A stretch of 23,992 nucleotides of DNA from a virus, in IMG/VR virus record IMGVR_UViG_3300017971_000761, positions 1 through 23,992 of that record. The stretch is one strand, 5' to 3'. Every line of letters starts with the position of its first letter. Positions within the stretch are counted from its first letter, which is position 1. Shown here one piece after another: positions 4,717 to 23,988 of the stretch. Under the pieces are notes generated by a model. That model made no database searches, was not told where the DNA came from, and saw nothing but the letters and a program-made list of their open reading frames with translations. The translations under genes were made by a program, and so were the position numbers.

Positions 4717-5910
4717 ATGCATCAGATCGACACAAGCGCACCGCATGTCTTCGCTACTGTCCGGGCCAGGAAGAACTCGGCGCATAGGGATATCACCGAC
4801 CTAGTCACGGCCCTGAAGTTCACCGATTCAGGGACCCGTCGCACGAACAAGATCGAGCTGACGCTGGACGGCGAAGACGGCACGCTTTGGGGCGACGACG
4901 ACCTCATGCGCAAGGGCGGTCTGATCCACGTAGAGTTCGGCTACCCGGGGGCGATGCGGGACATCGGAGACTTCTCTATAAAGAAGGTTAAGGGCGGACG
5001 GCAAACCTTCACCCTGGAGTGCTACCAAGCGAAGCGCAACAAGATGGTCCGGACAAAGAAGACTCGGGTGTTTACTGGCATGAAGCACTCGGATGTGGTC
5101 CGGATTCTATTCCGCGAGAATGGGTTCTCTCGGTTCTACGTGGACAACACGGATATCACCTACGACACCATCACACAGTCGGAGCAATCTGACTGGGAGT
5201 TCCTGCAAGAGCTTGCAGACCTCGACCACTATGAACTCTTCGTTGACGGAGGCGGAGCGCACTACGAAAAGCCGAAGTACGGAGCGAAACCAAAGAAGCG
5301 GCTCCGGTACATCAAGGGCGTGGTAGGCGTAGGCATGATCGAAGACTGGGATGTTGATGACATCGGATCAAAGGTGCCAGGCCGCATTGTCCTTAAAGGA
5401 TGGGACTCGGTGAACGGCCAACCCATCAACGTGGTAGCAGACGGGAGCCTGACGAAGTACGAAGCGCTAAACGAGACCGATGACGTCGCATCGCCAGCCG
5501 AGGGCGACGCAACCGCAGAGGGAGAGCACGGGCAGGACCTGGTTCTCCCAACTGGAGCGCGCAACTACCAGGAAGCGAAGAAGCTGGCTGACTCGCTGTA
5601 CAAGACGTACAGACACGGCGCGGTCAAGGTCACGCTGAAGACGGTCGGCGACCCGTGGATTTTCAGCCGGACGATCATCCTAGTGGAGGGCATCGGCCCG
5701 TACCTAGACGGGCGGTTCTACACGAAGGAGGTGGTCCACAGCATCGGCGGTGGGTACGGCTGCGAGATCAAAGCGAACAAGGACGGATTGAACCGCAAGG
5801 GCAAGGCGAAGACGAAGACAGGCGGAGAGATTCCGGAGGACTTAATCAAGGGCGACGAGGACGAAATCCTAGGGCGCGGGCACATCCGCCACAACATCGA
5901 GAACATCTGA
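4717..5910 (+). CDS. Baseplate hub protein, phage late control gpD / gp27-like
   Basis: A 397-aa protein starting directly after the LysM-like gene's stop. The layout matches the gpD/gp27/VgrG N-terminal hub family: an N-terminal domain with ITDLVTALKFTDSGTRRTNK; a second stretch with YPGAMRDIGDFSIKKVKGG and a strand containing FTLECYQAK; TGMKHSDVVRILFRENGF, typical of the family's central domain; and YDTITQSEQSDWEFLQELAD, a widely conserved motif in which the protein is said to be read 'early in the fold'. A Gly/Glu-rich insert (about 250-275) precedes the last tube-like domain. It forms the trimeric hub at the tube end onto which the spike docks, and the spike gene follows two bases later. 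Confidence 0.85.
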   Translation: MHQIDTSAPHVFATVRARKNSAHRDITDLVTALKFTDSGTRRTNKIELTLDGEDGTLWGDDDLMRKGGLIHVEFGYPGAMRDIGDFSIKKVKGGRQTFTLECYQAKRNKMVRTKKTRVFTGMKHSDVVRILFRENGFSRFYVDNTDITYDTITQSEQSDWEFLQELADLDHYELFVDGGGAHYEKPKYGAKPKKRLRYIKGVVGVGMIEDWDVDDIGSKVPGRIVLKGWDSVNGQPINVVADGSLTKYEALNETDDVASPAEGDATAEGEHGQDLVLPTGARNYQEAKKLADSLYKTYRHGAVKVTLKTVGDPWIFSRTIILVEGIGPYLDGRFYTKEVVHSIGGGYGCEIKANKDGLNRKGKAKTKTGGEIPEDLIKGDEDEILGRGHIRHNIENI

Positions 5911-5912
5911 CC

Positions 5913-6497
5913 ATGGAAGAAGCAAAGCGCCTAATGTCCAGCGTCACCGGCCCGAAGACAATCCCGGGGCCATACCCACATTGGGGTCGAGTGATCAACC
6001 GCAATGACCCCGACGGACTTGGGCGCGTGAAGCTGGAGGTCTACGGTGTCACTCAGGAGAGCCACTGGGCCCCTGTAGCCGCGCAACCGTTCGCCGGGGC
6101 CCCTGACAAGGGTGGACCCCTTGTCCCCCCGCAGAACGCCGTTGGGCTCGTTCTGTTCATTGCCGGAGAGAAGGAACACCCTGTCTTCTTTCCGACTGGA
6201 TGGCCGCGCGGCGGGGTGCCCGATGGGCACGTCATCACATCGGACGGAGACAAGACGGTCTGGCAAACCGAACGAGTCGCCGTGGAGATCGATAGCAGGC
6301 TAGCTACATCAGAGGTCACCATCCGCGACAAGAACGGAGAGTCTCTCGTTTCGCTGACGTTGGACATCGGAACGAAACAGGCGCGCATTAAGGCCGCAAC
6401 TTCGGTTAAGATCGAATCCGTCGGCGCAGTTGAAATCAATGCAGCCGGAGTAACCATCAATGGGCGCCCCGTGGCGCCAGGGACGAAGCCGATTTGA
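5913..6497 (+). CDS. Baseplate spike, gpV/gp5-like OB-fold protein
   Basis: A 194-aa protein starting at ATG 5913, two bases after the hub stop. The first 100 residues read as the gp5/gpV OB domain: HWGRVINRNDPDGLGRVKLE, then SHWAPVAAQPFAGAPDKG and VGLVLFIAGEKEHPVFFPTGW. The C-terminal half becomes a repetitive beta structure (SEVTIRDKNGESLVSLTLD, IKAATSVKIESVGAVEINAA) expected for the triple beta-helical spike. It ends in INGRPVAPGTKPI, with no obvious His-x-His iron site as in P2 gpV. No lysozyme domain is present, unlike T4 gp5. It would form the membrane-puncturing needle. An earlier in-frame extension exists but covers the hub gene and is rejected. Confidence 0.85.
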   Translation: MEEAKRLMSSVTGPKTIPGPYPHWGRVINRNDPDGLGRVKLEVYGVTQESHWAPVAAQPFAGAPDKGGPLVPPQNAVGLVLFIAGEKEHPVFFPTGWPRGGVPDGHVITSDGDKTVWQTERVAVEIDSRLATSEVTIRDKNGESLVSLTLDIGTKQARIKAATSVKIESVGAVEINAAGVTINGRPVAPGTKPI

Positions 6498-7216
6498 GCC
6501 AGCTATCAGCCCCAACATGCGTATCCATCCCTGACCCGCCGGCTCGCCTTGAGCTGTCGCTCCCGGGTGGAATGATCATCAAGGGCATTCCGTCCATCGA
6601 GGGCGGGGTGACTACCGAGATCGGCGCAGTCCAGAGCCTGCTCGCTCAAGCGGGGCCGGCGCTCGCGGCGCTGCAGCCTCCATTACTCACCATCGACGCC
6701 GTGGTGGCCTTGTTCAATCTGTTCGGGGCGATCCCCGACCTTATCGCCGGCGACGTCGAGGGATACCTTCAGGCGGTGGAAGAAGCGTTCGAGAAGGTGT
6801 CAAAGCTCACCGGCTTGGTTCCGCAAGTGGCGGTCCCTCGAATGGTGGCCGACACGATCGCCATGCTATCGGCCGCTCTCGATGCGATGGACACACTCGT
6901 CGGCGATGTGGTCGACATGAAAGCCGAGGCTGAAGCAGCAGTGGTGCAAGGGCAAGCAACGAGCAACGCCTACCTAGAAGCACACGGAGAGTGCATCAAG
7001 GTGCAAGCTGACCAGATGGCGAAGCACATCGGGGCGAGCATGGGTCCGATCAATGACATCATGGGCATCGCGTCGAAGCTGATTCAGATGGTTCCTGGCG
7101 GTAGTGAACTTCCGTCCATCGCTGATGCATCGTCTGTTCCGCTAGAGAGTCTTAGCGCCACCATACAGGCGACGAAAACGGTTCTCGATCAACTGCAGAT
7201 TCCGGGGGTGCCATAA
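6494..7216 (+). CDS. Unassigned helical protein in the baseplate cluster
   Basis: A 240-aa frame that starts with TTG at 6494, overlapping the spike stop (TTGA), or possibly with ATG at 6571 (MIIKGIPSIEGG). I do not recognise a family. After a proline-rich opening (SIPDPPARLELSLPGG), residues from about 45 to the end are mostly Ala/Leu/Val-rich helices. A single cysteine occurs near residue 168. There is no signal peptide, and no PAAR-like glycine/histidine repeats although PAAR proteins often lie next to the spike. It ends by TAATG overlap with the gp25-like gene, so it is embedded in the baseplate operon and is probably structural. A hub-interior or spike-associated role is a guess. Confidence 0.6.
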   Translation: MSQLSAPTCVSIPDPPARLELSLPGGMIIKGIPSIEGGVTTEIGAVQSLLAQAGPALAALQPPLLTIDAVVALFNLFGAIPDLIAGDVEGYLQAVEEAFEKVSKLTGLVPQVAVPRMVADTIAMLSAALDAMDTLVGDVVDMKAEAEAAVVQGQATSNAYLEAHGECIKVQADQMAKHIGASMGPINDIMGIASKLIQMVPGGSELPSIADASSVPLESLSATIQATKTVLDQLQIPGVP

Positions 7217-9177: not shown

Positions 9178-9939
9178 ATGGTTGCCAACGCTTCATTCGA
9201 GACGACCGACTCCAGCAGCTACGCACTGGCGAACAGCTGGACGCTTTCCGGCACCGCGCAGACTGATTCCTTCGCATTGGCGGAGTTCACATCCGACGCA
9301 TACACCGCCGAGGATTTCGAGCGCGGTTGGTCGTCCAATGAAGACAGGATCGCCGCGTTCGTCGGAATCGGCACTGACCTCACAGCCGGCTCGTTCGACT
9401 CGACTACACCAGAGGCATTCGAGGACTTCGAGGAAGAGTGGAGCAGCAACGAGAACCGGTTGGTTGAGTTCGGCTCAACCGTGGCTGGAGTGTTCGACGC
9501 AGCGTTGGATGCATTCGAGGATTTCGAGGAAGAGTGGAGCAGCAACGAGAACCGCAAGACCGCGTTCACCGGCATCGGCGTGGACCTCACCGCTGGGCTG
9601 TATTGGAACACGTCCGCGTCTGCGTCTCTCGCCTACGAAGACTTTGGTGTGCTGGTGATACTCCCGGTCATTGCAGGGGCGGGGGCTTCTGGCGTTTCGC
9701 GCACCATCGATCGCACTGGGATGATCGAGGTCAGGATATCAGGAACATGGTCGGCAACGCTTGAGATTCAAGTGCAGCGCGATGGGTTCTCTTCATGGGT
9801 TGCAGTTGATGACAACATCACATCGAATGGAACAACGGAGCTAGAAGCTGGCATCACAGCGGTTCGAATGCACACAAGCGCGTACAGCTCCGGAACACCC
9901 GGCGCGCACATAATCTTCCGTGACATAGACACGGTATAG
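9178..9939 (+). CDS. Repeat-containing accessory tail protein
   Basis: A 253-aa protein between the gpJ-like gene and further beta-rich genes; ATG 9178 comes one base after the previous stop and has only a weak ribosome site. Residues 1-40 (NASFETTDSSSYALANSW) look like the beginning of a galactose-binding-like fold. Three imperfect repeats follow, starting at residues 45, 82 and 114 with the motif EDFExxWSSNExR; two of the three are followed by F-x-GIGxDLTAG. The last third is beta-rich (GMIEVRISGTWSATLEIQVQ) and resembles small fibre or decoration domains. No catalytic motif is seen. A role in host-surface contact is likely from its position between wedge proteins, but is inferred. The repeats are nearly identical at DNA level, suggesting recent duplication. 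Confidence 0.65.
   Translation: MVANASFETTDSSSYALANSWTLSGTAQTDSFALAEFTSDAYTAEDFERGWSSNEDRIAAFVGIGTDLTAGSFDSTTPEAFEDFEEEWSSNENRLVEFGSTVAGVFDAALDAFEDFEEEWSSNENRKTAFTGIGVDLTAGLYWNTSASASLAYEDFGVLVILPVIAGAGASGVSRTIDRTGMIEVRISGTWSATLEIQVQRDGFSSWVAVDDNITSNGTTELEAGITAVRMHTSAYSSGTPGAHIIFRDIDTV
9310..9560 (+). repeat. Three in-frame EDFExxW repeats within the accessory tail protein gene
   Basis: Repeat starts are at 9310, 9421 and 9517, 111 and 96 bp apart, both multiples of three. Bases 9415-9458 and 9511-9554 (44 bp) differ only at 9426/9522 (C versus T, silent). The first copy is more diverged (EDFERGWSSNEDR against EDFEEEWSSNENR), so the second and third copies arose more recently. Confidence 0.9.
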
Positions 9940-15545: not shown

Positions 15546-15574
15546 TTGCGCTCACCGGGTTGGTTTGTTACAAC
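15546..15574 (+). promoter_or_regulatory. Promoter 1 of the three-unit region
   Basis: TTGCGC (15546-15551), 17 bp, TACAAC (15569-15574), preceded by an A-rich tract (15521-15542) like an UP element. CAGATGACGCA follows at 15580-15590. The same -10 and downstream sequence recur at promoters 2 and 3, which makes this convincing despite a weak -35. Together with the divergent promoter, this explains the 195-bp gap between 15388 and 15582. Confidence 0.75.
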
Positions 15575-15621
15575 TGAATCAGATGACGCACACGGCACAC
15601 AACACCGACACGGAGAACACG

Positions 15622-15939
15622 ATGAACAGCTTCACCACCATGACCCTCTCGAACGGCGACACCCAGCGCGTGGACTTCGGCTTCCGCAACGACGACAACA
15701 CCCAGGACATCGGGCGTTACCGCAACCTTCTCCTTGACTGCGGTGTGAACGGCAACGTCTTGGTGACCTACGCCGTCTCCTTCGAGCTTCTCGGGGATGA
15801 CACCTACGTGTGCTCCTTCCGTCGTGAGTCCGGCAACGCTCCGGCTGCCATCGCCAAGGCGATGCGCGGGATGGCCGACGGCCACGCTAGCTACCTCGCG
15901 GAGCAGAAGCGCCGCGAGGCCATGGGCTGGCAGTCCTAG
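15622..15939 (+). CDS. Small hypothetical protein of unit 1 (105 aa)
   Basis: ATG 15622 has GGAG six bases upstream. An alternative in-frame ATG at 15583, inside the conserved CAGATGACGCA only 8 bases after the -10, would add 13 residues beginning MTH and would be read from a leaderless transcript. The protein has a beta-rich first half (MTLSNGDTQRVDFGFRND; LVTYAVSFELLGDDTYVCSF) and a helical C-terminus (AAIAKAMRGMADGHASYLAE) ending in KRREAMGWQS. No known family or membrane segment is seen. It is the first gene of unit 1 and is followed by the two-hairpin element. By position it corresponds to the small first genes of units 2 and 3, though their sequences are not similar beyond the leader. 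Confidence 0.68.
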   Translation: MNSFTTMTLSNGDTQRVDFGFRNDDNTQDIGRYRNLLLDCGVNGNVLVTYAVSFELLGDDTYVCSFRRESGNAPAAIAKAMRGMADGHASYLAEQKRREAMGWQS

Positions 15940-15945
15940 CCCACA

Positions 15946-15986
15946 CCGAGCCGCCGCGCTCGGCAAGGGTCCAACGGGCCCTTGCC
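15946..15986 (+). other. Two-hairpin intercistronic RNA element, copy 1
   Basis: Hairpin 1: CCGAGC (15946-15951) pairs with GCTCGG (15958-15963). Hairpin 2: GGCAAGGGTCC (15962-15972) pairs with GGGCCCTTGCC (15976-15986) around a 3-nt AAC loop, with one G-U pair. The two share two G bases. No T-run follows, so it is not a standard terminator. ACGCGACGAC comes next, as in copies 2 and 3. Confidence 0.8.
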
Positions 15987-16024
15987 CAACGCGACGACAA
16001 CGACCGAACGAGAGGAGAGAGACC

Positions 16025-16306
16025 ATGACCTTCGCCGAGAAAATCGCAGCCGCGCAGGAAGCCGCAGCGAACGCCCCGAAGCAACCGAACCGACGCGGTG
16101 GGCCGACCATCCGCGACCACGTCAGCGATGCACTGGACAATGGCGCGACCGAGTCGGCCGCAGTCCTTCGGCACGTGCTCAACAAGCAAGGGTTCCGGTC
16201 CGCTGCGCTGGACGCGATGAGCGACGCGGACTTGATGAAAGTGTGCGCCACGAGCCGCACCGTTGACATGACTCTGCGGCGCGAGCGACGCCGGCGCGGA
16301 CAGTAG
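16025..16306 (+). CDS. Small basic protein (93 aa)
   Basis: ATG 16025 follows GAGAGGAGAGAGACC, the same initiation region found before the next gene. The N-terminus is an alanine-rich helix (TFAEKIAAAQEAAANA), then a proline-arginine linker, then a compact helical part (IRDHVSDALDNGATESAAVL) that could be a small winged-helix-like or helical domain. The C-terminus is strongly basic (TLRRERRRRGQ), which suggests nucleic-acid binding. I do not recognise a family. It lies between the first two-hairpin element and the 366-aa gene, so it probably shares the unit 1 transcript. Confidence 0.68.
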   Translation: MTFAEKIAAAQEAAANAPKQPNRRGGPTIRDHVSDALDNGATESAAVLRHVLNKQGFRSAALDAMSDADLMKVCATSRTVDMTLRRERRRRGQ

Positions 16307-16347: not shown

Positions 16348-17448
16348 ATGACCACCACGACGACGAAAAAGACGGTGAAGGAAGTTCGCAACGACCTGGA
16401 AAGCGCGATGCAGGAAGGGGGGCACCTCGGCGACCTGGTGAACTGGAGCATCCGCGTCGGGGCTGGTGTGCTACCGGAAGAGGTCGAGAAGGCGCTGACC
16501 GACAACGAGCTGGACACCAGCTACATGCCCAACCACCCGAGCGACCTGTCAGCTGTCCAGCGGGTGATGCGCGAGTTCAAGCGTCAGGGGTTCGTCTTCC
16601 GCAAGCTGGCGAACGACGACGGGCACACCCTGTGGGCGGTGGCTTCCACTGAGGTGGACGCGGACGCCAAGGTCGGGGACCGAGCTGGCGAGGTGGTCAA
16701 CCAGATGGCCTTCCTGAAGCCGACCGGCGAGATGGTCTTCGACCGCGAGGATGAGCCCACCGCGCAAGCTATGGCCGGAGCGTTCTCCCGGTACAAGGGG
16801 CGCTACGATCGGGACATGCTCCGCGGGATGGTCAAGAACTTCCTGCTCGGCAAGTTCAACGGCGTGAAGATGTCCTCCGGCATGGGTCTCTGCTTCGTGC
16901 CTACCGACGCGGTGGACGAGGTCCGGCGACTGGAGCAAGCCGTCGCGATGCTCGGCGAGTCCGAGTTGGGTGTGCTCCCGGTGCCCGGCACCCCCGGGGC
17001 GAAGCGCACGGTCGGGAACAGCATCCGCGAAGCGGTGGAGAGCAAGGTGGAGAAGTTCCGCGCCGAGATGGACGCCTGGAGCGAGGACACCCGCCCGAGC
17101 ACGATCGAGCGTCGCATGTCCGCCTACGCCGACCTCCGGCGCCAGGCGAACGACCTGCGGACCTTCCTGGACCAGACCAACGCGGACCTCCTGGAAGACA
17201 TCGACGGGCTGGCCAAGAACGCGAAGGCCATGCTGGAGAGCGCGGTGGACCCCGACGCAGAGAGCCGGAAACCGAAGACGGTCCGCAAGGCGAAGCCAGC
17301 AGCGAAGAAGGCCATCCCCGCGGAGCACGCCACCGACCGACCAGACCGGTTGCTCAAGGCGGACCTGAAGCGTACCTGCAAGGAGGCCGGCATCGACACC
17401 CGCGGGATGAAGGTCAAGGACATGCGGGAAGCCCTCGCGGCTCTCTAG
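16348..17448 (+). CDS. Unit 1 large protein with SAP-like C-terminus (366 aa)
   Basis: ATG 16348 uses a ribosome site identical to that of the previous gene. I do not identify the family firmly; similar proteins accompany phage MoxR/vWA genes in my memory (possibly DUF6744), but this needs a profile search. Visible parts: a helical N-terminal region with a hydrophobic WSIRVGAGVLPEEVEKAL; a central segment (FRKLANDDGHTLWAVAS; FSRYKGRYDRDMLRGMVKNF); a long charged helical/coiled-coil stretch at about 235-300; a Lys/Ala-rich linker at about 300-330; and a final 33 residues reading LLKADLKRTCKEAGIDTRGM then KDMREALAAL, the helix-extended-loop-helix pattern of SAP/HeH DNA-binding modules. As the first large gene before the RavA-like and ViaA-like genes it is a candidate third component or substrate adaptor. 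Confidence 0.72.
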   Translation: MTTTTTKKTVKEVRNDLESAMQEGGHLGDLVNWSIRVGAGVLPEEVEKALTDNELDTSYMPNHPSDLSAVQRVMREFKRQGFVFRKLANDDGHTLWAVASTEVDADAKVGDRAGEVVNQMAFLKPTGEMVFDREDEPTAQAMAGAFSRYKGRYDRDMLRGMVKNFLLGKFNGVKMSSGMGLCFVPTDAVDEVRRLEQAVAMLGESELGVLPVPGTPGAKRTVGNSIREAVESKVEKFRAEMDAWSEDTRPSTIERRMSAYADLRRQANDLRTFLDQTNADLLEDIDGLAKNAKAMLESAVDPDAESRKPKTVRKAKPAAKKAIPAEHATDRPDRLLKADLKRTCKEAGIDTRGMKVKDMREALAAL

Positions 17449-17459
17449 CGGCGAACCAG

Positions 17460-17485
17460 GGCGCCCTGGAGCAATCCGGGGCGCC
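17460..17485 (+). terminator. Hairpin after unit 1 (possible terminator)
   Basis: GGCGCCCTGG (17460-17469) pairs with CCGGGGCGCC (17476-17485) around AGCAAT, a 10-bp stem with one G-U pair, 11 bases after the 366-aa gene's stop. The next bases are not T-rich, so intrinsic termination is doubtful. A Rho-assisted or processing role is possible. It overlaps a perfect palindrome at 17456-17469. Confidence 0.45.
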
Positions 17486-17544
17486 ACAGCCAACCCGCCC
17501 GACCTCGCTCCGAGAACGAATCCGAAAAAAGTTTTCCGAAAGTG

Positions 17545-17572
17545 TTGACACCCCGGCTCACTGTGATACAAC
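17545..17572 (+). promoter_or_regulatory. Promoter 2 of the three-unit region
   Basis: TTGACA (17545-17550), a perfect -35, with 16 bp to TACAAC (17567-17572), preceded by an A/T-rich tract (17524-17541) like an UP element. CAGATGACGCA follows at 17579-17589. It drives the small zinc-site protein and the RavA-like gene. Confidence 0.85.
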
Positions 17573-17616
17573 AGAAACAGATGACGCACCGAAACACACA
17601 CACCGAGGAGAGCACA

Positions 17617-17781
17617 ATGAACACCGACACCAACAACACCCCTGTCATCAACCTCGACCCCGCCGAGCACAAGGACTGTGTATGCTGCGACGGCCACCCG
17701 GACGACGACGGCTTCTTCATCAACGAGGTTGGCGACTGGGAGCCGTGCGCCATCTGCGGCGGATGGGGATGGCGCGACTAG
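17617..17781 (+). CDS. Small cysteine-rich, probably zinc-binding protein of unit 2 (54 aa)
   Basis: ATG 17617 has AGGAG a few bases upstream; a second in-frame ATG at 17581, in the conserved CAGATGACGCA, would add 12 residues (MTHRNTHTEEST). The protein carries CVCCDGH (residues 21-27) and CAICGGWGW (44-52), two cysteine pairs 20 residues apart of the kind that bind zinc in rubredoxin-knuckle or DnaJ-like zinc ribbons. Between them is an acidic loop (PDDDGFFINEVGDWEP). It has no recognisable family. As the leading gene of the RavA-like unit it may be an adaptor or redox/metal partner of the ATPase, which is inference from position. Confidence 0.75.
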   Translation: MNTDTNNTPVINLDPAEHKDCVCCDGHPDDDGFFINEVGDWEPCAICGGWGWRD

Positions 17782-17787
17782 CCCACC

Positions 17788-17829
17788 CCGAGCCGCCGCG
17801 CTCGGCGAGGGTCTCACGGGGCCCTCGCC
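17788..17829 (+). other. Two-hairpin intercistronic RNA element, copy 2
   Basis: Hairpin 1: CCGAGC (17788-17793) with GCTCGG (17800-17805). Hairpin 2: GGCGAGGG (17804-17811) with CCCTCGCC (17822-17829), extendable by G-U and C-G pairs towards the loop. Compared with copy 1 an A-T pair has become G-C on both sides of the stem. ACGCGACGAC follows again, then the ribosome site of the RavA-like gene. Confidence 0.8.
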
Positions 17830-17860
17830 CAACGCGACGACCCAACCAAAGGAGAGACCG

Positions 17861-19012
17861 ATGACCACCACGAAGACCCCAGCCGAGAAGCTGTCCACGA
17901 TGCGGAGCCAGCTCCGCGGTAAGTTCCTGGAGCGCACCGCCGAGATCGACGGGCTGCTTTGCGCGATGCTAGCGCGACACCACGTGCTTCTGCTGGGCCC
18001 TCCCGGCGAAGCGAAGTCCGCCCTGGCCTCTGTGGTCACCGACGCGATCACCGGCGCCGACCTGTTTCAGGTCCTGCTCACGAAGACCACCACGCCGGAG
18101 GAAATCTGCGGGCCCCTGGACCTCCCCGCGCTGGAGCAAGGGCACTACCGGCGGAAGGTGGACGGCTACCTCCCGACCGCTCACATCGCCTACATCGACG
18201 AGACGTTCAAGGGTAGCTCCGCCATCCTGAACACGATGCTCACCGCCCTGAATGAGCGTTCCTTTGACAACGACGGCGGACGCCACGACATCCCCTTGAT
18301 GACCGCGGTGGGTGCGAGCAACGAACTCCCCGACGATCGCGACCTCGGCGCCCTGTATGACCGCTTCCTGCTGCGTTACTGGGTGGAGCCTGTCAAGACC
18401 CGCTCCGCCCGTCGGACGCTTCTACAGCGCAACGGGGCGAGCCTGAACATCACGGAGACGATGACCCTGGCCGAGCTGGAGACGGCGATCGAAGACGTCG
18501 AGAAGGTCACCCTGGAAGACACCATCGTCGACCGGCTGCTGGACATCCGCGAAGCCCTGGAGGACATGAGCATCGTCGCCAGCGACCGCCGATGGATCCA
18601 GATCATCCGGCTCCTGAAAGCCCGCGCCTACCTCGACGGCTGCGACTCGGTGGAGACCAGACACCTATCCATCTTGTGCGACTGCCTGTGGAAGGAGCCC
18701 AAGGAGCGGAGCGAGGTGGTGAAGGTTGTGAACAAGCTGGCGCACCCCGTCACCGCGGAAGCCCTCGAAGCCCTCGACGCGGCCGAGTCCGAGGTGGAGA
18801 AGGTGCCCGGGTTCACCGGCTCGAATCACGCGGACGTCATCAACGGCGTTCGGGCTGTGGTCCGCAAGCTGACCGCGGTGGTCAACGACCTCGACGGACT
18901 GCCCAGCAAGGCCCCCGAGTCCGAGTCCGCCGAGATTGACCAGGCCATGGCGAAGGTCGACGCAATGATCTCCGCCGCGAAGGCGAAGGCCGAGAAGCTG
19001 GTCGAACTGTAG
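17861..19012 (+). CDS. RavA-like MoxR-family AAA+ ATPase
   Basis: A 383-aa protein; ATG 17861 after AAAGGAGAGACCG. Walker A is GPPGEAKS (46-53), Walker B IAYIDE (109-114), then the MoxR-type NTMLTALNERSF (124-135) and sensor region VGASNELPDD followed by LYDRFLLRYWVE with an arginine suited to the finger role. TTPEEICGPLDLPAL and the ASNELP motif match the RavA branch more closely than generic MoxR. E. coli RavA is about 498 aa; here the sequence after about 320 is a helical, charged tail, so the LARA domain that binds the lysine decarboxylase in E. coli is probably missing. MoxR ATPases remodel or load client proteins together with a vWA partner, and a ViaA-like protein is encoded by the next unit. 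Its own promoter and a strong terminator bracket the unit. Confidence 0.88.
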   Translation: MTTTKTPAEKLSTMRSQLRGKFLERTAEIDGLLCAMLARHHVLLLGPPGEAKSALASVVTDAITGADLFQVLLTKTTTPEEICGPLDLPALEQGHYRRKVDGYLPTAHIAYIDETFKGSSAILNTMLTALNERSFDNDGGRHDIPLMTAVGASNELPDDRDLGALYDRFLLRYWVEPVKTRSARRTLLQRNGASLNITETMTLAELETAIEDVEKVTLEDTIVDRLLDIREALEDMSIVASDRRWIQIIRLLKARAYLDGCDSVETRHLSILCDCLWKEPKERSEVVKVVNKLAHPVTAEALEALDAAESEVEKVPGFTGSNHADVINGVRAVVRKLTAVVNDLDGLPSKAPESESAEIDQAMAKVDAMISAAKAKAEKLVEL

Positions 19013-19021
19013 GCTCTCCTG

Positions 19022-19060
19022 GACCGGCCCGGGGTGGCTCCCGGGTCGGTCGTTTCTTCT
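19022..19060 (+). terminator. Intrinsic terminator after the RavA-like gene
   Basis: GACCGGCCCGGG (19022-19033) pairs with CCCGGGTCGGTC (19040-19051), 12 bp with one G-U, loop GTGGCT, followed by a T-rich GTTTCTTCT. It lies 9 bases after the stop and just before promoter 3, cleanly separating units 2 and 3. Confidence 0.85.
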
Positions 19061-19072
19061 GAAACAAAGTGC

Positions 19073-19101
19073 TTGACGCGGGGCCGATTCGGCGCTACAA
19101 C
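19073..19101 (+). promoter_or_regulatory. Promoter 3 of the three-unit region
   Basis: TTGACG (19073-19078), 17 bp, TACAAC (19096-19101), with CAGATGACGCA at 19108-19118. The -35 begins 12 bases after the terminator T-tract ends. It drives the 99-aa protein, the WGR-vWA protein and probably the genes after it. Confidence 0.82.
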
Positions 19102-19143
19102 TGTAACCAGATGACGCACGCAACCAACACACGGAGCAACAAC

Positions 19144-19443
19144 ATGAACGCCATCGACAACGCCGTCCGCATCGCCCGCAACGCCTACAACAACGCCATG
19201 AAGGAAGACTCCGTATTCCTCAACCTCCACGTTGTCGACGGCTGGTCCTGGTCTTCCCTGGTTACTGTGTCCGGCAAGTCATACGCATGCACCGCCGTCA
19301 CCCGCCGCGACTTGAACGGTGGCGAACAGCGGATGATCGAGGTCATGCCATGCGGTCCTAGCGTCAAGAAGAACTGGATCATGCTGGTCTCCCTGGAGGA
19401 CCACGAGGAAGCGGAGCACGTGAAGGGCGCAGAGTTCCACTAG
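19144..19443 (+). CDS. Small hypothetical protein of unit 3 (99 aa)
   Basis: ATG 19144 has GGAG seven bases upstream; an in-frame ATG at 19111 within the conserved downstream box would add 11 residues (MTHATNTRSNN). The protein begins with a helix (NAVRIARNAYNNAMKEDSVF), has a beta-rich middle (LNLHVVDGWSWSSLVTVSG, then KSYACTAVTRRDLNGGEQRM) and an acidic, histidine-containing end (DHEEAEHVKGAEFH). No family or membrane segment is recognised. It leads the unit that encodes the ViaA-like protein, in the same position as the small proteins of units 1 and 2. Confidence 0.7.
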   Translation: MNAIDNAVRIARNAYNNAMKEDSVFLNLHVVDGWSWSSLVTVSGKSYACTAVTRRDLNGGEQRMIEVMPCGPSVKKNWIMLVSLEDHEEAEHVKGAEFH

Positions 19444-19449
19444 CCACCA

Positions 19450-19489
19450 CCGGGCGTCGTGCCCGGCGAAGCTCCACAGGGGCTTCACC
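19450..19489 (+). other. Two-hairpin intercistronic RNA element, copy 3
   Basis: Hairpin 1: CCGGGC (19450-19455) with GCCCGG (19461-19466). Hairpin 2: GAAGCTCC (19468-19475) with GGGGCTTC (19479-19486), loop ACA, one G-U. The stems differ in sequence from copies 1 and 2 but remain paired. CGACGCGACG follows. Confidence 0.8.
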
Positions 19490-19519
19490 CGACGCGACGG
19501 ACGACCAAAGGAGAGCACG

Positions 19520-21244
19520 ATGATCAGACTGGAGAACACCCGCGGAGGCTCGAACAAGTTCTACGAAATCTGGACAGCCGACACATCCGGCCAGCACGTG
19601 GTCATGGCTCGGTACGGTGCCATCGGCACCCCAGGGACGACCATCACGAAAGACGCCTTCGACATGCCACGCAACGCGGAGCGATACATCGGCGCAGTGG
19701 TCAAATCGAAGCTCCGCCGAGGTTACGTTCAGGTGGCCGACCTCTCCAGCGTGCTCGGCACCCCCGAGAAACCCGAGGTGGTGGACGGCGTCCCCAAGGA
19801 CGTGGTCAACCCGGACGGCGATCTCGCCTTCGAGACCGACGCCGGAGTCCGGTACGCTTGGCGAAAATTCGTTGGCGCGGCCGACTGTCGCGACGCGGTG
19901 GAGACGATGGAGGCGGAGCACGAGGGGGGCGCCGAGTTCGTCCGCGAGGTGTTCGGCCGGCTCCACGACGGCGACCTCATCGAGAAGGCCGAGCCCGATC
20001 AGTGGGCGCAGTGGGCGCACGACCGAGCTTCCGAGGTCCCCGAGTTCGCCGCCATGGCCGACGAGGTCCGCGGAGATCGGTGGGAGTCTGGATGCGTCGC
20101 AGTCGCCGTCTCCCGCGCGGTGATGGCACAGATGGACCAGGACGCCCAGGACCAGGAGAACGGCCAGCAGAACGCGAACCAGGGCGCAGGAGAGGGAAGC
20201 CAGTGCGACCAGGACGGGGACCAGGACGGAGACGGCGAAGGACAGGGCAACGGGCCCGCTCTCCCAGAGTCCGGGGCGGGCACCCGCCAGGCCATCCGCC
20301 AGGCACTGCGCCAAGCTCAAGAGCAGATCGAAAACGAGCGCGAAGCCGCGGAAGCAATGGCCAGCGGATGGGGGACCGGCGGAGGCTCGGACGTCTTCCC
20401 GGGAGACGGGCTCGCGCAGAAGGCAGCCCTGGCTGACCTGGTCAAGGCCATCCCAGACTTTCGCCGCATCATGGAGATCGCTGGACGGATGCGCGGGGTA
20501 GCCGAGGCCAAGCGCAAGGAGCGGACCCGCGAGGTCCCCGAAGAGGTCGCGGACGTGGACCAGGGAGCCGACTTCGCGCGAACCCTCCCGGTTGAACTGG
20601 CGAAGCTCCGCGGAGCCCCCGGGCTGCGTCTCGACTTCTTCCGGCGCTACGTCGAGAAGTCCACCCTGGTCTACAGTCTCCAGGGCAACGAAGCGAAAAA
20701 GCGCGGACCGATCGTCGTCCTGCTGGATTGCTCCGGCTCGATGGAGGGACAGCGCGACATCTGGAGCAAGGCCCTCGCTATCGCGATGCTGAACGTGGCT
20801 ACCACCGAGCGCCGCCCCTTCGCAGCGATCACCTATGACGGCGACTGGCGCAACGTCTACGCCGTTGATCGCTCGTCAGCGAACTCGGCGGAGCGCGTTC
20901 GGAACACTGCCGAGCTACTCAACGAGCGCGCCGACGGACACTCCACCGACTGGGAGCGCCCCCTTCGGAAAGCGTGGGACGTGATGGAGGATGAGGACTT
21001 CGCAAAGGCCGATGTAGTGATGCTCACCGACGGATCGTGCCGAGTCTCCGACGAGTTCAAGCGAGAGTGGTCGGAGTGGCGAGAGGCGCGCGGGGTCACC
21101 GCGTTCGGGTTCTGCATCGACGGCCGGGTGGACAACCTCGACGCCATCATGGACGAGGTCCACACCATCGACTCCCGCGCAGCCGAGGACAACGACGGAT
21201 TCACCGCCATGGTCAACGAGGTGGTTGGCGACACCATCAACTAA
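19520..21244 (+). CDS. WGR domain fused to a ViaA-like von Willebrand A protein
   Basis: A 574-aa protein; ATG 19520 after AAAGGAGAGCACG. Residues 1-72 look like a WGR domain (NKFYEIWTADTSGQHVV, then ARYGAIGTPGT). A helical part and an acidic, Gln/Gly-rich linker (206-245) follow. Residues 316-396 resemble the ViaA stem before its vWA domain: EVPEEVADVDQGADFARTLP, then FFRRYVEKSTLVYSLQGNE and RGPIVVLLD. The vWA domain (397-574) has a full MIDAS set: DCSGS (403-407), T476 in HSTDWERPL, and D504 in MLTDGS, so it should bind Mg. ViaA partners RavA in E. coli, and the RavA-like gene is adjacent. WGR domains also occur in MolR, encoded near the MoxR/vWA genes yehL/yehP in E. coli, so this fusion joins known associates. 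Function in the phage is not known. Confidence 0.87.
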   Translation: MIRLENTRGGSNKFYEIWTADTSGQHVVMARYGAIGTPGTTITKDAFDMPRNAERYIGAVVKSKLRRGYVQVADLSSVLGTPEKPEVVDGVPKDVVNPDGDLAFETDAGVRYAWRKFVGAADCRDAVETMEAEHEGGAEFVREVFGRLHDGDLIEKAEPDQWAQWAHDRASEVPEFAAMADEVRGDRWESGCVAVAVSRAVMAQMDQDAQDQENGQQNANQGAGEGSQCDQDGDQDGDGEGQGNGPALPESGAGTRQAIRQALRQAQEQIENEREAAEAMASGWGTGGGSDVFPGDGLAQKAALADLVKAIPDFRRIMEIAGRMRGVAEAKRKERTREVPEEVADVDQGADFARTLPVELAKLRGAPGLRLDFFRRYVEKSTLVYSLQGNEAKKRGPIVVLLDCSGSMEGQRDIWSKALAIAMLNVATTERRPFAAITYDGDWRNVYAVDRSSANSAERVRNTAELLNERADGHSTDWERPLRKAWDVMEDEDFAKADVVMLTDGSCRVSDEFKREWSEWREARGVTAFGFCIDGRVDNLDAIMDEVHTIDSRAAEDNDGFTAMVNEVVGDTIN

Positions 21245-22800: not shown

Positions 22801-23988
22801 ATGACGAACAAGAAGACCCCCGCGCCCGCGACGCCGGCTCACCCCGAGGTCATCGACCAGAGCGGACTTGCGGTGAACTCGCACAAAGAGCTTTCGCCCG
22901 AGCGACTCCGCGCCCGCATCAACAAGATTCAGGAGCTGATCGCGGATGTCCTCGTCGAGGATGTCCATTATGGCATCATCCCCGGCACACGGAAGCGCAC
23001 TCTCTACAAAGCCGGAGCTGAATACTTGATGCTTCTGTTCGGGCTCCATCTCACCGACGTGGAGGCCGAAGACATTTCCGGCAAGGACGAGGTCCGCTAT
23101 CGCGTGACCACCCGTCTCCGCGATGCTCGCGGGTTCATCATCGCCACCGGCGTGGGTGAGTGTTCCAGCTCCGAGGAGAAATACGCCTGGCGCGCAGCGG
23201 TGTGTGATGAGGAATGGGAGGACTACCCCGAACACCGGCGCCGGAAGAAGTGGAAGCAGTCCGGCGACTGCATCAAGCAAGTCTCCACCACGCCCGCCGA
23301 TCAAGCGAACACGGTCCTGAAGATGGCCAAGAAACGCAGCATGATTGACGTGGTCCTGACGGGGACCGCAGCGTCGGATTGTTTCGAGCAGGACATGGAG
23401 GAAGGCAGCCCGGCCAGCGAGCACAACAAAGCGAACAAGAGGCGCGGAAGCAACCGCCGCAAGAAGGCCGGCGGTAAGGCGCAACACATCGCTGCGATCC
23501 AGTCGGTGAAGGTCAAGAAGACCGGCGGAGACGGCGACAAGGCGTGGACAATCTGGACCGTCACCGCCGAAGACGGGAAGGCGTTCGATCTCGCCTTTGA
23601 CAAGAAGCTCCACGCGGTGGCCGACGAGCTGGCCGGAACCGGCGTGGTGGTTTCCATCGAGTGGGAGTCCACCCAATACGGCCCCAAGCTGCTGGGCATC
23701 ACCGACCACACCCCGCAGACACCAGCCGACGAGCCACCACCGCCCGATGACGGCGATGCACTGCCACCCGGGGACCAGGACACCCCCGAGGGGGAGAACG
23801 CCCAGGAGAACGCGAACCAGGGCGCCACAGGCGGAGCCACCCTTGCAGACCTGAAGGCGGAGAAGGAGCGCACCGGGCTGACCTGGGACGACATCCGCAG
23901 CATCGCCAAGAAGGCCGGAGTCAAGGGAGCGTCGTCGAAGTCCTGGAAGCCGGACGAGATCGCACGCATCATCGCGGAGCTTCCTTGA
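22801..23988 (+). CDS. Recombination-associated protein: possible annealing domain, OB-like domain and SAP/HeH-like tail
   Basis: A 395-aa protein; ATG 22801 after AAAGGAGAGACCC. Part 1 (about 30-200) has patterns I associate with a conserved phage/bacterial family: VEDVHYGIIPGTRKRTLYKA, GVGECSSSEEKYAWR, NTVLKMAKKRSMIDVVLTGT and ASDCFEQD, reminiscent of Rad52/ERF-like annealing proteins, where a late helix carries 'K.A.KRa..dA'. Part 2 (228-302) looks like an OB fold (SVKVKKTGGDGDKAWTIWTV; GVVVSIEWESTQYGPKLLGI). An acidic Pro/Gln linker (305-345) follows. The last 48 residues (LADLKAEKERTGLTWDDIRS, IAKKAG, KPDEIARIIAEL) resemble a HeH/SAP module. Position after a RecE-like nuclease supports an annealing or ssDNA-binding role, but the assignment is tentative. 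Confidence 0.6.
   Translation: MTNKKTPAPATPAHPEVIDQSGLAVNSHKELSPERLRARINKIQELIADVLVEDVHYGIIPGTRKRTLYKAGAEYLMLLFGLHLTDVEAEDISGKDEVRYRVTTRLRDARGFIIATGVGECSSSEEKYAWRAAVCDEEWEDYPEHRRRKKWKQSGDCIKQVSTTPADQANTVLKMAKKRSMIDVVLTGTAASDCFEQDMEEGSPASEHNKANKRRGSNRRKKAGGKAQHIAAIQSVKVKKTGGDGDKAWTIWTVTAEDGKAFDLAFDKKLHAVADELAGTGVVVSIEWESTQYGPKLLGITDHTPQTPADEPPPPDDGDALPPGDQDTPEGENAQENANQGATGGATLADLKAEKERTGLTWDDIRSIAKKAGVKGASSKSWKPDEIARIIAELP

Follow-up and report, generated by a model that had tools for sequence, protein, structure and literature searches.

In the right half of one phage record, the same two-hairpin RNA element stands three times between a small and a large ORF, which raises the question of what a single fold, reused in three operons, may do there. 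The window analysed here is the complete IMG/VR virus record IMGVR_UViG_3300017971_000761 (23,992 bases), which is probably a genome fragment. Its left half encodes the tape measure and baseplate proteins of a contractile-tailed phage, and a 47-nt direct repeat (9412–9458 and 9508–9554, 96 % identical, 96 nt apart) lies within the ORF at 9178–9939. Its right half holds three co-directed units.

Organization of the repeated units

All three units follow one order: a promoter-like site, the leader motif CAGATGACGCAC, a small ORF ending in UAG, 6 nt, hairpin 1, hairpin 2 (which has a GG in common with hairpin 1), ACGCGACG, a ribosome-binding site and a large ORF. Apart from the elements themselves, the features are as follows.

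15546–15574, + strand: promoter-like site of unit 1 (TTGCGC-17-TACAAC)
15580–15591, + strand: leader motif CAGATGACGCAC of unit 1, exact match
15622–15939, + strand: small ORF 1, 105 aa, its UAG ending 6 nt before hairpin 1
16025–16306, + strand: ORF after element 1, 93 aa, without a Pfam match
16348–17448, + strand: DUF6744 protein (PF20529, E value 1.3e-9)
17460–17485, + strand: end hairpin of unit 1, after the DUF6744 gene, 11 bp, GCAA loop, without a T-run
17545–17572, + strand: promoter-like site of unit 2 (TTGACA-16-TACAAC)
17578–17589, + strand: leader motif CAGATGACGCAC of unit 2, exact match
17617–17781, + strand: small ORF 2, 54 aa, two CxxC motifs, UAG end
17861–19012, + strand: MoxR-type AAA+ ATPase after element 2 (PF20030, PF07728, PF17868)
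19022–19051, + strand: end hairpin of unit 2, terminator-like, between MoxR and promoter 3, 13 bp, T-rich tail GTTTCTTCTG
19073–19101, + strand: promoter-like site of unit 3 (TTGACG-17-TACAAC)
19108–19119, + strand: leader motif CAGATGACGCAC of unit 3, exact match
19144–19443, + strand: small ORF 3, 99 aa, UAG end
19520–21244, + strand: WGR-VWA protein after element 3 (PF05406, PF13519)

The promoter-like sites were read by eye, in a block that is similar in all units; a consensus promoter scan that requires a T as the final base of the −10 box reported none of the three. Exact copies of the leader motif are confined to these units. None of the small ORFs has a match in Pfam or PHROG; the protein of small ORF 2, 54 aa with two CxxC motifs, is presumably zinc-ribbon-like.

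Using BLASTn between units, we found two common blocks, the promoter with its leader (identity 78 % for units 1 and 2, 77 % for units 1 and 3 and 81 % for units 2 and 3) and the stretch from stop codon to ribosome-binding site that holds the element (86, 72 and 75 %, respectively). This second block starts 1–2 bases 5′ of the stop codon and ends past the element at the ribosome-binding site, and its onset at the stop codon is an observation that goes beyond the preliminary description of this locus. The small ORFs between the two blocks are unrelated, with no detectable similarity. The large ORFs all lie in frame +1 relative to the small ORF, across gaps of 85, 79 and 76 nt (units 1–3). Stop-codon read-through or frameshifting was considered and ruled out, as no slippery site was seen and UAG closes more ORFs here than any other stop codon (17 of the 27 taken as genes, record positions 1–23988).

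Two adjacent hairpins with compensated changes

The preliminary description placed the element at 15946–15986, 17788–17829 and 19450–19489, with two adjacent hairpins in each copy, and these coordinates proved correct.

15946–15963, + strand: hairpin 1, copy 1, 6 bp, 6-nt loop
15962–15986, + strand: hairpin 2, copy 1, 11 bp, loop AAC, GG in common with hairpin 1
17788–17805, + strand: hairpin 1, copy 2, 6 bp, 6-nt loop
17804–17829, + strand: hairpin 2, copy 2, 11 bp, 4-nt loop
19450–19466, + strand: hairpin 1, copy 3, 6 bp, 5-nt loop, one compensated pair
19465–19489, + strand: hairpin 2, copy 3, 11 positions, one C.A mismatch, 3-nt loop

Hairpin 1 starts 6 nt past the UAG in all three copies, and its last two G are the first two of hairpin 2. 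The stem changes reported earlier are likewise as described: copies 1 and 2 have CCGAGC/GCTCGG in hairpin 1 where copy 3 has CCGGGC/GCCCGG, while hairpin 2 changes from GGCAAGGG/CCCTTGCC to GGCGAGGG/CCCTCGCC in copy 2 and reads GAAGCTCC/GGGGCTTC in copy 3. The GG common to both stems, the ACGCGACG 3′ of each copy and the absence of a T-run were all confirmed; directly 3′ of hairpin 2 stands CAACGCGACG in copies 1 and 2 and CGACGCGACG in copy 3. From hairpin 1 to tail, the element measures ~50 nt with two stem-loops, and some 8–17 nt separate its end from the next ribosome-binding site. Because copies 1 and 2 are nearly duplicates of each other (86 % over a stretch of 80 nt), most of the evidence comes from copy 3.

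Between copies 1 and 3 there are nine stem substitutions across the columns compared (four pairs from hairpin 1, eleven from hairpin 2); eight of them make up four compensated pairs and one breaks a pair (C.A). Random placement of nine substitutions did as well or better with a joint frequency of ~0.0001, the same test giving 0.0004 for copies 2 and 3 and 0.015 for copies 1 and 2, with copy 3 re-registered by hand with one gap and the three comparisons being non-independent. When the 3′ partners of 18 pairs were shuffled on MAFFT's own alignment, 14 of 500 shuffles equalled the observed number of doubly changed pairs (three, in hairpin 2). Folding energy z-scores were −3.3, −2.3 and −2.3 for copies 1–3, and the elements are among the most stable 0.2–0.6 % of 11,966 62-nt windows of the + strand. 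Hairpins with at least nine uninterrupted pairs are frequent in the record (22, overlapping ones counted apart, vs 4–17 in 20 simulated sequences), so a single hairpin alone is unremarkable. A coding origin of the covariation was ruled out, as the 1-nt insertion in the hairpin 2 loop of copy 2 shifts the frame inside the element.

In all, the window contains three intercistronic elements that are paralogues of one another; each combines two covarying hairpins and is set between a small and a large ORF, in units with similar promoter-like blocks. The compensated pair changes and the partner shuffles support the earlier proposal of a structured RNA kept by selection, and the structure of the element looks to be under selection.

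Complementarity between the hairpin 1 loop and the tail

A further feature, absent from the preliminary description, is a complementarity between the loop of hairpin 1 and the tail of the element. The loop segment concerned is CGCCGCG (CGTCGTG in copy 3).

15990–15996, + strand: tail CGCGACG, copy 1, complementary to 15952–15958 with one C.A mismatch
17833–17839, + strand: tail CGCGACG, copy 2, complementary to 17794–17800 with one C.A mismatch
19493–19499, + strand: tail CGCGACG, copy 3, 7 bp with 19455–19461

The fold chosen by RNAfold is not the two-hairpin form, rather a long hairpin with seven outer positions, a 3×3 internal loop and the 11-bp hairpin 2. Its energies are −28.5, −30.5 and −28.9 kcal/mol for copies 1–3 vs −23.7, −22.7 and −24.4 kcal/mol for two hairpins, the copy 2 value of the latter having been computed with a poorer loop closure, worth 2.6 kcal/mol in the long fold. 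With the tail removed from the folding input, the two-hairpin fold or a near variant is favoured. Shuffled tails and shuffled loops paired equally well in 10 and 9 % of cases for copy 1, 3 and 9 % for copy 2 and 0.5 and 2 % for copy 3, and no doubly changed pair occurs in the loop–tail (outer) stem across the three copies; on these grounds, we regard the loop–tail pairing as suggestive. It may form a pseudoknot with hairpin 1 or, alternatively, a long hairpin that excludes hairpin 1. From the size of its footprint, a ribosome standing at the UAG is expected to occlude the 5′ arm of hairpin 1; in a fold modelled for this case, the long hairpin can still form. A pairing between leader motif and element was also looked at and dropped, the partial complement having been seen by eye in copy 3 only.

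Relatives of the element and of the units

No homologue of the element was found in Rfam, 318 loci or 297 genomes. With the entire record as query (E≤5), Rfam returned a single unrelated sub-threshold match at 9775–9870, which is no ribozyme, and with the element 1 region (E≤10), it returned nine matches, each far under its gathering score; among the models, the hammerhead ribozyme scored 11.3 bits on the minus strand of that region vs a gathering score of 37. A self-cleaving ribozyme was ruled out for want of an Rfam match. Searches with our element model (R1) gave nothing credible in 85 MoxR-relative loci (L164–L248) plus the window (best E value outside the window 0.46) or in 68 further loci (best E value 0.13), no match at E≤1 in sets of 82 (L005–L008 excluded) and 75 loci and no match in the 297 genomes. 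The best match among the remaining eight loci (E value 0.0003, L318 and its near-copy L322) lies on the opposite strand of a 429-aa ORF and was taken as chance. Hairpin-pattern scans returned 0, 68 and 8 loci, and BLASTn of element 2 against phages returned two weak matches (E value 0.3). The promoter pattern hit two loci in viral contigs, one in another phage's VWA-like gene and one in unrelated sequence, and both were taken as chance.

Scans that used MoxR or VWA as the only query protein yielded no loci, the conserved protein at 22801–23988 yielded 80 viral and 75 genome loci and the MoxR alignment yielded 80 viral loci. Among the 161 loci searched, no other protein of the record had a match at E≤1e-4, nor did eight of these proteins at E≤10. 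Such empty searches weigh little, as near-identical records may be missing and the scans need exact short matches. With no homologue beyond the record, the evidence for conservation of the element comes from three paralogues, of which two are close, and the element is so far private to this record.

The MoxR–VWA pair itself is common among the 85 MoxR-relative loci (80 viral contigs, one phage and four plasmids), 84 of which show a match to VWA and 13 one to DUF6744; bpMoxR ternary systems are treated in PMC7159879. On Alicyclobacillus and Brevibacillus plasmids, the DUF6744, MoxR and VWA genes are adjacent, without promoter–small ORF–element modules. The window has the same DUF6744–MoxR–VWA order (16348–21244), split by two such modules.

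Three unrelated MoxR–VWA contigs (L243, L225 and L213), hand-picked from a list of 107 repeat pairs, contain their own sets of hairpins repeated between genes, in some cases immediately 3′ of a stop codon, so repeated intergenic RNA folds occur in some other MoxR–VWA phages. L243 has two identical 55-nt hairpins (1681–1735 and 2902–2956, −35.5 kcal/mol), each only a few bases 3′ of a stop codon and ahead of the next ribosome-binding site, and, near its MoxR–VWA cassette, two type II hammerhead ribozymes (RF02276; 1362–1427 and 6816–6883; 40.6 and 49.9 bits, above the gathering score). In L225, an intercistronic block (2674–2721 and 7053–7100) combines a variable hairpin with a constant GTTCGCCGTCGTTCCGAGAATTGG-like part, and blocks of this type recur in several copies across its 37-kb phage record. 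L213 has two copies (5092–5150 and 5873–5931) of an adjacent hairpin pair, an 11-bp hairpin with a CTTTT loop followed by CGCAA/TTGCG; its stems seem to share bases, as in the element, and no sequence likeness to the element was seen.

Comparison with published repeats

A literature search of open-licence PubMed Central papers, judged on titles and the opening lines of abstracts, brought up no description of such an element. Among the papers found, the nearest published repeated intergenic inverted repeats in phages are the SAS and ESAS of cluster K mycobacteriophages, which according to PMC3203893 are short intergenic repeats with inverted repeats, located before some gene starts (SAS, a start-site repeat of 13 bp; ESAS, inverted repeats of 17 bp with a variable spacer). 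In contrast, the element described here is compact, lies 3′ of stop codons and covaries. The nearest repeated RNA folds among these papers are the hammerhead ribozymes flanking prophage genes, which are repeated, intergenic and, in the account given in PMC3088659, proposed to divide phage transcripts; unlike them, our element has no Rfam ribozyme match (record at E≤5; sub-threshold only on element 1).

Possible functions of the element

Two of the roles suggested earlier, mRNA processing or stabilisation and partial termination, fared differently. The position fits the former, a structure without a U-tract directly past the small-ORF stop codon, whereas partial termination is possible but weaker. 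Of the two parts of an intrinsic terminator, a GC-rich hairpin and a U-tract, a hairpin is present and the U-tract absent, and the terminator scan was blank at all three copies. What each copy presents is a stable intercistronic hairpin after an upstream gene and without a U-tract, as in decay terminators. The reading that we tentatively place first is that of a cis-acting intercistronic mRNA element forming or protecting the 3′ end of the small-ORF message, because intercistronic hairpins lacking a U-tract are documented to stabilise the RNA of the upstream gene (PMC5927463). Of 34 stabilised operon segments in E. coli, 26 are reported to end just past a stable hairpin with no U-tract after it, and the decay-terminator hairpins described there (malE–malF, puf and others) are, like ours, stable, within an operon and after the upstream gene (PMC5927463). 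The phage element differs from them in its two overlapping covarying hairpins, its loop–tail complement, its invariant tail and its presence in three operons.

Under this 3′-end reading, each element would be transcribed within the operon RNA, and the 11-bp hairpin 2, just past the small-ORF stop, would block 3′-to-5′ exonucleases and may also end some transcripts. A stable small-ORF message would then outlive the large-ORF part and yield plentiful small protein, with DUF6744, MoxR and VWA made in smaller amounts. The fold of hairpin 2 might be shaped or timed by hairpin 1 and the loop–tail pairing, and a ribosome at the UAG, by covering the 5′ arm of hairpin 1, would favour the long hairpin. 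The compensated changes in both hairpins are consistent with 3′-end protection, as are the similarity that extends from the stop codon as far as the ribosome-binding site, in contrast to the differing small ORFs, and a hairpin 2 without a U-tract that is about as long as the hairpins at 17460–17485 and 19022–19051. However, a plain decay barrier would have no need of an invariant tail ACGCGACG or of a complementary loop, conservation is known from three paralogues only, two of them close, and the promoter-like sites were read by eye and are absent from the consensus scan output. A moron terminator as the sole role was ruled out: element 3 lies between promoter 3 and VWA, and full termination there would silence VWA. 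A terminator-like hairpin precedes promoter 3, and the stretch from element 3 to the VWA start showed no promoter-like site; RNA polymerase expressing VWA is therefore expected to start at promoter 3 and transcribe through element 3.

A more elaborate proposal, which we consider improbable, is that a compact pseudoknot of hairpin 1, hairpin 2 and the loop–tail pairing, set exactly after the stop codon, acts as a sensor of the terminating ribosome: by giving up hairpin 1 in favour of the long hairpin, it would decide whether polymerase or nuclease halts past the small ORF or proceeds into MoxR or VWA; the element would then represent a new class of phage cis-acting RNA. A put-like RNA antiterminator that binds its own RNA polymerase and carries it past the end hairpins of units 1 and 2, joining the units into long transcripts as well, is the foremost of the bolder alternatives, yet still an unlikely one. 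HK022 put is described as an RNA of about 70 nt with two stem-loops that follows early promoters, putR lying about 270 nt from the start (PMC9378689), and PMC11658703 also informs this reading. The element resembles put in size and form: both are phage RNAs of about 60–70 nt that occur more than once in a genome, two stem-loops lie within ~70 nt downstream of a promoter (the promoter being a reading), the elements begin, counted from the stop codon, 357, 201 and 333 nt past the start of the leader motif in units 1–3, unit-end hairpins lie 3′ of elements 1 and 2 and the invariant tail and possible pseudoknot would suit an RNA with a specific binding partner. The comparison with put, made by description, covers size, place and stem count, and the element has no Rfam match. 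Moreover, the phage element follows the first ORF and begins exactly at its stop codon, which is unexpected for such an RNA, and only one of the two unit-end hairpins resembles an intrinsic terminator.

The element could also be bound by a protein of phage or host (a small protein or a new RNA-binding protein) that controls the operons post-transcriptionally. This would fit an element in which all copies keep the tail and most of the sequence around the loop closure, and which ends some 8–17 nt short of the ribosome-binding site; with that site outside the fold, and with small proteins that are mutually unrelated and belong to no Pfam or PHROG family, we think it improbable as well. Cleavage by an endonuclease, for instance RNase III acting on the long hairpin, could part the small-ORF from the large-ORF message. 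The long hairpin may resemble phage RNase III sites and comes out as the nested fold of lowest energy in each copy, but in its outer stem no pair is doubly compensated and two copies have a C.A mismatch, and the loop–tail complementarity is marginal in copies 1 and 2 (equalled by 3–10 % of shuffles), so that such processing appears less probable again. Lastly, the elements could be functionless by-standers of a duplicated promoter and intercistronic block, given that all copies lie within one record and that copies 1 and 2 match at 86 % across 80 nt. This is very improbable: the random-placement test of compensated pairs already disfavours it, eight of the nine stem substitutions between copies 1 and 3 falling in such pairs, and the ORFs between the blocks retain no detectable similarity.

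Significance

Intercistronic hairpins without a U-tract were already known to shape operon output. In the present case, a phage uses one fold repeatedly, in three operons around a MoxR–VWA cassette and with unrelated ORFs in between, which offers three natural modules for comparing the roles of decay barrier, antiterminator and ribosome-sensing switch. The element could explain how small and large proteins come to be made in unequal amounts from one promoter.
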